Source: Synechococcales cyanobacterium PMM_0003 (lineage in GTDB: Bacteria; Cyanobacteriota; Cyanobacteriia; Pseudanabaenales; Pseudanabaenaceae). From it: a DNA stretch of 6,963 bases. The stretch spans positions 1-6,963 of the forward strand of contig CASBRC010000370.1 in NCBI GenBank assembly GCA_949128015.1, in the 5' to 3' direction. Positions 4,059-6,963 of this stretch are shown piece after piece. Positions within the stretch are counted from its first letter, which is position 1. The number at the start of each line of letters is the position of its first letter. The notes beneath the pieces were generated by a model. The model saw only the letters and a program-made list of their open reading frames with translations. It was not told the origin of the DNA and ran no database searches. The position numbers and the translations under genes were made by a program.

Positions 4059-4121
4059 AATCCAAAACCAAAAGGATAGAGGCGGCGCGAAGCGCCGCCT
4101 CTATCCTTTTGGTTTTGGATT
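4059..4121. repeat. Perfect 30-bp-arm palindrome with GC-rich tip
   Basis: Arms 4059-4088 and 4092-4121 pair at all 30 positions around a GAA loop (4089-4091). The tip reads GGCGGCGCGAAGCGCCGCC and the outer 22 bp of the stem is AT-rich. Position 4058/4122 breaks the pairing. It lies 33 bp after the purK stop, between convergent genes, where it could act as a bidirectional transcription barrier or RNA-stabilising stem. The absence of any mismatch in 30 bp argues for recent formation or strong maintenance. The tip and loop resemble the palindrome near 6837, so it may be a dispersed REP-like element. Confidence 0.85.
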
Positions 4122-5456: not shown

Positions 5457-6776
5457 GTGTTTGATCTATTAACCAATATTCTGATTTGGATTATTGCAAT
5501 CCCAATTTTTGTAATTCTGTTTAGGGCCATTCCTAAGGACTGGTTTCGTCTTTTCGGATTGCTCATATTTGCGGCTTTAGTTGCCATTATTTTTGCTAAC
5601 TTCAGATTTGTTGAAGAGCCGATCCCCAGAATTGTTGTTGATTTCCTGACTTTTCCATTTACGCTAGTTGGAATTATCCTGCTATTGCTATTTTTTAACT
5701 ACTGGCTAAGGCTCAAAGATGTAAAAATCAAAAGCGGTGATAAGGCTGATAATAAAGGCGCTTCCGAAAAAATTGCGATTGTTAGTAAAGAGATATTAAT
5801 AGTTTTACTGATCTTTGCGATCGCAACAAATAATGCCACCTCAGAGCTATTTACTTGTTATATAGAGCAGCAAGGAGCTAATGCGATCGAGCAATCCTAT
5901 CGCCGCCCAGTTCGCGATCTGTCAGACCAAGAACTACTAGATTTTAGACGCGGAGTTTTTGATCTCATCGTTGTCCTTGCCGAACCCCCCCCCTATGAGC
6001 CGCGTCTCCAAGAAGCGATCAGATTATGGAATGCCGCCGACCCACAACTAAAACCCTATATTCTCTTGAGTGGTGGTAAGCGAATATCTTACCCATCCAC
6101 TAAAGGATATCCTTGCCTCACTGCGCCAGAATCACCACCAATCCGTACCAAAGAAAATGTTAGAGATGAAATTGCAAGTCGGGCGGGTATACCTAACATC
6201 GGATTAAGGTATGACCCACGCTATGAAGGCTACTTCACTAATCCAGCCAGTCCTAGCGACGGTATTCCTCAAGTTGATCTAACTGAAGCCGATCAAATGT
6301 GTGCTGCACTGACTAGTTTCCCAAACGTCTCTGTTATCCGTCCTTTTGTGATTATTGAGCCATCAGGAATAACAGTCCGCAGTAGTGGCGATGAAATTAA
6401 CAAACTCATCAAGTCTCTAGAAAAAAACAAACTACTACGAGAAGATCCTCGCAATAGTAGAAGAATCTTGCTAATCGCTTCTCCTGTTGAAGCAACTCGA
6501 GCCTTTTTGTCTTTTAGAAGCCTAGAACTCAATGCTTCTCTAACAACCGCTAGCTATCCTTCTGATAGCCATAGCAATCTTAGTCAGCAATGCCCTTGGC
6601 CGATTGGCAAGCAGTTTAGACTTAAGCCACAATATTTTCTTTTTAATGCCCAAGCTTTTGTGCGATCTGAGCGAGCTTGGACAGAAATTAAAGAACTAGT
6701 GTTTTATGCACTCAGATTTTGGTTACGCCCTCCGCTAACAGATGAACGTCCTTACTATCCCAAGCAACCAGTCTAG
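5457..6776 (+). CDS. Four-helix membrane protein with DUF218 (YdcF/ElyC/SanA-like) domain
   Basis: A 439-residue protein starting at GTG 5457 behind a strong GGAGG (5448-5452, 4-nt spacing). Hydrophobic segments at about 4-25, 33-49, 61-83 and 108-124 suggest four transmembrane helices. The remainder resembles the DUF218 fold: DLIVVLAE at 169-176, R183, ILLSGG at 202-207, TEADQM at 276-281, IIEPSGIT at 299-306, RILLIASPVEATRAF at 336-350, and a C-terminal segment with E405 and E410. Family members such as ElyC and SanA act in envelope or peptidoglycan-precursor homeostasis in other bacteria; the reaction here is unknown. An insertion of about 65 residues separates LSGG from TEADQM, and the usual glycine-rich turn after the first strand is replaced by AEPPPYEPR. 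A run of nine C (5985-5993) encodes the prolines. The last 66 bases are duplicated in inverted orientation just downstream. Confidence 0.75.
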   Translation: MFDLLTNILIWIIAIPIFVILFRAIPKDWFRLFGLLIFAALVAIIFANFRFVEEPIPRIVVDFLTFPFTLVGIILLLLFFNYWLRLKDVKIKSGDKADNKGASEKIAIVSKEILIVLLIFAIATNNATSELFTCYIEQQGANAIEQSYRRPVRDLSDQELLDFRRGVFDLIVVLAEPPPYEPRLQEAIRLWNAADPQLKPYILLSGGKRISYPSTKGYPCLTAPESPPIRTKENVRDEIASRAGIPNIGLRYDPRYEGYFTNPASPSDGIPQVDLTEADQMCAALTSFPNVSVIRPFVIIEPSGITVRSSGDEINKLIKSLEKNKLLREDPRNSRRILLIASPVEATRAFLSFRSLELNASLTTASYPSDSHSNLSQQCPWPIGKQFRLKPQYFLFNAQAFVRSERAWTEIKELVFYALRFWLRPPLTDERPYYPKQPV

Positions 6777-6792
6777 ATAAGGATCATAAACC

Positions 6793-6881
6793 AAATAACT
6801 TATGCTTTTCCAAACCCAAATATGTTTCGGCGGGCGAAGCCCGCCGAAACATATTTGGGTTTGGAAAAGCATAAGTTATTT
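6793..6881. repeat. Inner GC-tipped palindrome, candidate bidirectional terminator/REP-like core
   Basis: Between the central loop and the single mismatch the arms are perfect for 43 bp. The tip reads GGCGGGCGAAGCCCGCC and the stem is AT-rich, the same design as the palindrome after purK but with a different stem sequence. It starts 17 bp after the stop of the membrane-protein gene, a natural place for a terminator-like hairpin. I infer that this inner part may be the original element and that the outer 81 bp was added by fold-back copying, real or artefactual. Confidence 0.55.
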
Positions 6882-6897
6882 CGTTTATGATCCTTAT

Positions 6898-6963
6898 CTA
6901 GACTGGTTGCTTGGGATAGTAAGGACGTTCATCTGTTAGCGGAGGGCGTAACCAAAATCTGAG
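6898..6963 (-). pseudogene. Mirror copy of the C-terminus of the DUF218-like gene, cut by the window edge
   Basis: Reading the minus strand from the window edge gives the last 21 residues of the neighbouring membrane protein, beginning LRFWLRPPL and ending YYPKQPV, then a TAG at 6900-6898. It is base-for-base identical to 6711-6776 in inverted orientation. It may be an assembly artefact or the end of a real second, convergent copy lying outside the window. Confidence 0.6.

Follow-up and report, generated by a model that had tools for sequence, protein, structure and literature searches.

Known fold-back chimeras and palindromic repeats

In the PDSM model, as set out in the available part of its description, library preparation gives chimeric inverted reads that fold back at palindromes and carry mismatches (PMC10908179). 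Multiple displacement amplification yields inverted chimeras when the end of a strand re-primes nearby, according to the accessible text of PMC1855051. Nematomorph mitochondria are reported, in the portion available of PMC6649704, to have genuine and perfect inverted repeats inside coding genes, some as long as 284 bp. A search of the literature for contig-end palindromes as misassemblies found nothing direct, PMC7674155 and PMC8116208 dealing with other matters in their accessible parts, and a search for Pseudanabaena together with palindrome or MITE found no paper on such repeats.

The locus described here resembles several of these systems in part. Like PDSM chimeras as the available text presents them, it folds back at a natural inverted repeat or palindrome and has a mismatch; those chimeras come from human libraries and concern variant calling, whereas we infer the present fold-back from contig ends (PMC10908179). 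Chimeras from multiple displacement amplification are likewise inverted joins, but in the accessible account they have intervening deletions, whereas the join here lies at a perfect hairpin (PMC1855051). The hairpin at the center belongs to a family that shares its short, dispersed palindromic form with REP/REPIN sequences and with cyanobacterial MITEs such as Nezha, as far as the available text of PMC3733652 goes. Many copies of this family differ in having a one-sided extension.

A palindrome at the end of the contig

The window is the entire contig C370 (G000:C370:1-6963; 6,963 nucleotides) from a draft genome of the Pseudanabaena group (G000; 3.10 Mb in 503 contigs; completeness, 76.76%). 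The features of its right end are as follows.

5457-6776, plus strand: DUF218-type ORF of 439 aa (ORF list; Pfam DUF218, PF02698; orthologs in relatives)
6778-6811, plus strand: left flank of the element, carrying a short terminal motif (GGATC, 6781-6785) together with the AAATAACTTATG... extension; alignable to copies on C363, C381, and C480
6792, plus strand: mismatch position; the left arm has C, and the return arm, at partner position 6882, reads G
6812-6862, no strand assigned: hairpin core of 51 nt with a 24-bp stem and a GAA loop; dispersed repeat with covarying stem
6815-6862, plus strand: 48 nt identical to the start of contig C321, which is probably the true neighbor (overlap; synteny)
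6863-6963, minus strand: fold-back stretch, the reverse complement of 6711-6811 with one mismatch; likely absent from the chromosome here

An earlier note, made from the letters alone, had reported a near-perfect palindrome that ends at the edge of the window and includes coding sequence in its outer arm, and both observations hold. The two arms, 6711-6835 and 6839-6963, have 125 nt each and flank the 3-nt loop GAA; they pair at 124 of their 125 positions, the sole mismatch being C opposite C at 6792/6882, and the right arm stops at the final base of the contig (6963), with no sequence beyond. The right arm mirrors positions 6711-6776, the final 66 nt of the 439-aa ORF including its stop codon. 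The palindrome is far longer than expected by chance, the longest internal arm in the sampled contigs of this genome being 35 nt. Length and coding content alone prove nothing, because nematomorph mitochondria have such repeats, as the accessible text of PMC6649704 reports.

The ORF matches Pfam DUF218 with an E value of 1.2e-06 (28.9 bits versus a cut-off of 27.6). Within the draft genome, the end of this gene matches C370 only (all 36 candidates scored); no third genomic place was found in G000, and C370 itself ends at 6963. The 16 named loci with this gene are Pseudanabaena records, except for one labeled Phormidium tenue and one from an uncultured cyanobacterium.

The hairpin core is a dispersed repeat

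The core at 6812-6862 is a genuine dispersed hairpin repeat of a known general kind. In the contigs sampled it has 25 placements, counting C370 and C321, i.e., 24 elsewhere. The DNA fold of 6809-6865 has a free energy of -34.5 kcal/mol (z = -14.08). In 22 center-aligned copies, at least two Watson-Crick pair types occur at 12 of the first 24 stem positions (position 11, for instance, has AT, TA, and GC, and position 17 has AT and GC), and 507 of 594 stem pairs are formed; some copies have diverged or contain a stem indel. Full pairing at positions 25 to 27 is limited to C370 and 2 of 21 other copies (on C160 and on C20 near 3648), which puts the length of the natural stem at about 24 to 28 bp. 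MITE- and REP-like elements can be recognized by terminal inverted repeats with a target-site duplication or by a REP tag with a RAYT partner; of this kind of element, the core has the dispersed copies with a conserved hairpin, and GGATC-type ends are present in several copies of its family. In the earlier note, the nature of the inner palindrome as a dispersed repeat went unrecognized. With at most 9 candidates scored per genome, similar cores turned up in at least 13 of the 22 further genomes examined from the genus; the 15 from outside the genus yielded none.

The motif AACTTAT flanks the core on a single side in 10 of the 25 placements and on both sides in 2; it was not seen exactly in the other 13, some of which are divergent and some cut by a contig end. 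The two both-sided placements are C370 itself and an internal copy on C480 near 6646 (C480 6616-6678, L055), which has 30-nt arms and, unlike the one-sided copies, carries the AACTTAT extension on both sides. A universal one-sided extension consequently fails as a stand-alone proof of artifact, and mirrored copies can be genuine because this copy is extended on both sides, though its arm is only 30 nt long.

Contig C321 is the likely continuation

Contig C321 begins inside the hairpin core. Its bases 1-48 equal C370 6815-6862 with the loop in the same orientation, and past base 48 it reads TATCTAATTTGCGATCCTA, the right end usual for the repeat family. Over the 19 nt past the core, 12 of 13 other copies are nearer to C321 (7 to 18 of 19) than to C370 (3 to 6 of 19), the exception being the copy on C83 (5 of 19 versus C321; 7 of 19 versus C370). 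C321 then enters a gene for an RRM protein (ORF list, Pfam).

The stretch with the RRM gene (C321 121-1500) was used as a synteny query against the 19 relatives with a locus for the DUF218-type gene. In 18 of them, similarity to C321 starts 9 to 439 nt downstream of the ortholog in the same orientation, and at the lone miss (L022) about 200 nt of contig remain; when every row is counted, including genomes present twice, the figure is 33 of 35. G003 and G013 match the gene but lack a locus and stand outside the count of 19. Because C321 carries the sequence that adjoins the gene in relatives, the outer right arm of C370 is most likely a fold-back, and the overlap and gene order make C321 the likely true continuation of C370. 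The earlier note had suggested a fold-back at a contig end and had named, as the result that would decide the matter, long reads leaving the inner palindrome into other sequence. Just such an exit was found, in a contig and not in reads: C321 departs from the core into the gene expected there.

The position of the core bears on another explanation, an ordinary long terminator or single regulatory hairpin. The core does follow a stop codon, and the C321 gene is oriented in its direction, which would place it between convergent genes. However, the outer arm is coding sequence, with which a terminator was already inconsistent, and the core is a dispersed repeat that relative G006 lacks at the corresponding place. 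We consider an ordinary terminator very improbable. A further hairpin lies on C321 between the element and the RRM gene (about 68-122, L052). Two repeats appear to stand side by side there, because G006 has only a short terminator-like hairpin at this place.

Palindromes at other contig ends

We surveyed 68 readable contigs of the 503 (67 plus C370), which together offer about 431 kb and 135 ends. Six of these ends bear a palindrome whose arms reach at least 40 nt, and 5 of the six are clear: C370 (125 nt), C187 (107 nt), C20 (78 nt), C162 (75 nt), and C369 (63 nt). The sixth, on C100 (46 nt), is doubtful as a fold-back, since a further copy of the C100 repeat matches most of it (13-87); we count it among the six but not among the five clear cases because it may be a natural repeat. 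If C370 and 21 contigs picked for the repeat are set aside, 4 of 92 ends remain, 3 of them clear. A hairpin stands at the center of each of the five clear fold-backs, and contigs C321, C101, and C143 start in a hairpin or at most 3 nt from one. These further ends lend weight to the artifact reading of the earlier note.

Several other copies match 1-89 or 1-90 of C187 in both orientations (40 of 269 candidates scored), so that its inner 90 nt are likewise natural. When 81 nt of C20 and of C369 were queried, no other copy with an identity of at least 95% matched more than 67 of them (40 of 93 and 40 of 52 candidates scored, respectively), and the near-identical copies therefore lack the mirrored extension. 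Four copies of the C20 hairpin at 77 to 85% identity match 75 to 78 of the 81 nt, with gaps, so some relatives of this repeat are longer on both sides. The hairpins of C20 (18250-18330, L062) and C369 (4951-5031, L034) belong to other families with many genomic copies, of which the near-identical ones are longer on just one side of the core.

Inside contigs, none of 152 palindromes in the sampled contigs of G000 reached a 40-nt arm (maximum, 35). The 141 palindromes in 400 kb from a 4.9-Mb contig of relative G022 likewise all fell short of it (maximum, 36). No fold-back was seen at the 40 ends of 20 contigs of the related draft G006 or at the 30 ends of the last batch of G000 contigs (n = 15 readable), and because of these two results the rate of fold-back is uneven.

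These counts bear on the possibility that template switching at the hairpin truly duplicated the gene end in inverted orientation in the cell and that the duplication became fixed in the sequenced strain; a duplication by template switching was the other origin proposed by the earlier note. The palindrome does stand in the sequence, hairpins are known sites of template switching, and the internal copy on C480 is extended on both sides. Long coding palindromes have also been reported elsewhere, in the accessible text of PMC6649704. Against this, C321 holds the expected other side of the element together with the conserved downstream gene, internal arms in the sampled contigs of G000 and G006 and in the stretches of G022 reach at most 36 nt, and long palindromes in the sample were seen at contig ends only, at unrelated loci. 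A recent inverted duplication thus finds no support here and is very unlikely, although a minority of cells may carry one. Equally improbable, in our judgment, is a general process in which strand switching templated by hairpins would mirror gene ends onto repeats in living Pseudanabaena, with contig ends catching the minority chromosomes; if it were true, the both-sided internal copy on C480 would be a fixed example.

Origin of the probable fold-back

The palindrome reaches the last base of the contig, some other ends of the assembly are alike while the sampled contig interiors are not, and the continuation stands on another contig. On this evidence, the outer right arm (6863-6963) is very probably a fold-back artifact of the contig end, whichever of two routes produced it. 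Most likely, then, the long palindrome is no new biological feature, and only the hairpin core is genuine. C370 would pass through the genuine hairpin element after its last gene and, beyond the hairpin, run back over its own left flank as the reverse complement instead of entering C321. A single strand may have folded or paired at the hairpin during library making or amplification and then been copied, giving chimeric reads that would lengthen the contig by less than about one read length. Our guess is that the reads were about 150 nt long and that the genome is a metagenome bin. The shortest contig met has exactly 2500 bases, and such a minimum would presumably fit a binning cut-off.

The same artifact could instead arise during assembly, the walk through the de Bruijn graph turning back at the self-complementary core. 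The 24-nt arms of the hairpin share canonical short k-mers, and at small k the walk could exit along the reverse-complemented left flank, possibly that of another strain's allele. Such a walk suits the perfect 24-bp stem of the core, the central hairpin in all five clear cases, and the starts of C321, C101, and C143. However, it can be reasoned that at k above about 27 the loop yields fold-back k-mers present in no true read, and the return arms have no single k-related length. Counted from the contig end, the first mismatch (or, failing one, the loop) lies at a distance of 81 nt in C370, 74 in C187, 78 in C20, 63 in C369, 46 in C100, and 24 in C162; no single k fits, and one assembler k was dropped as the cause of arm length. 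Because the return arms of the clear cases range between 63 and 125 nt and mismatches occur in some arms, we favor chimeric reads over an error of the graph alone and regard the graph walk as a possible but distinctly less probable route.

The earlier note had found the C/C mismatch at 6792/6882 unexpected in a pure copy. The mismatch is present, but it need not surprise, since it fits a chimeric read or a second strain. In 12 other copies that bear the extension (rows read by eye), the base at 6792 is G in 4, T in 5, A in 3, and C in none. On C162, the coding mismatch is a synonymous Leu change (TTG/CTG, read from the sequence) at the start of a gene, which fits what is expected of a strain allele. 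For the mismatch of C370, a co-assembled strain or a chimeric read is the likely source. If the strand copied on return came from another cell or strain, a single mismatch would follow; the mismatches of C370 and C162, few cases as they are, would fit a return strand from another strain or molecule.

In a hairpin-rich cyanobacterium, draft contigs can thus end in mirror copies of genes that are most likely false and that risk being read as palindromes, inverted duplications, or antisense genes. They make up about 4% of the sampled ends (5 or 6 of 135), in a sample partly picked for the repeat. A simple check is to look for a long palindrome that touches a contig end together with another contig that starts in the same hairpin.

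Other features of the contig

Positions 127-5241 of C370 hold ordinary genes (Pfam): a T5orf172 domain protein, RuvB, a member of the creatininase family, a PurK-type ATP-grasp protein, and a radical SAM protein of the lipoyl synthase type, for which LIAS_N scores slightly below its cut-off. A second perfect hairpin, with a 30-bp stem and a GAA loop, lies at 4059-4121 and is of the GGCGGCGC type. Several relatives have intergenic hairpins with GC-rich cores beside the ortholog.
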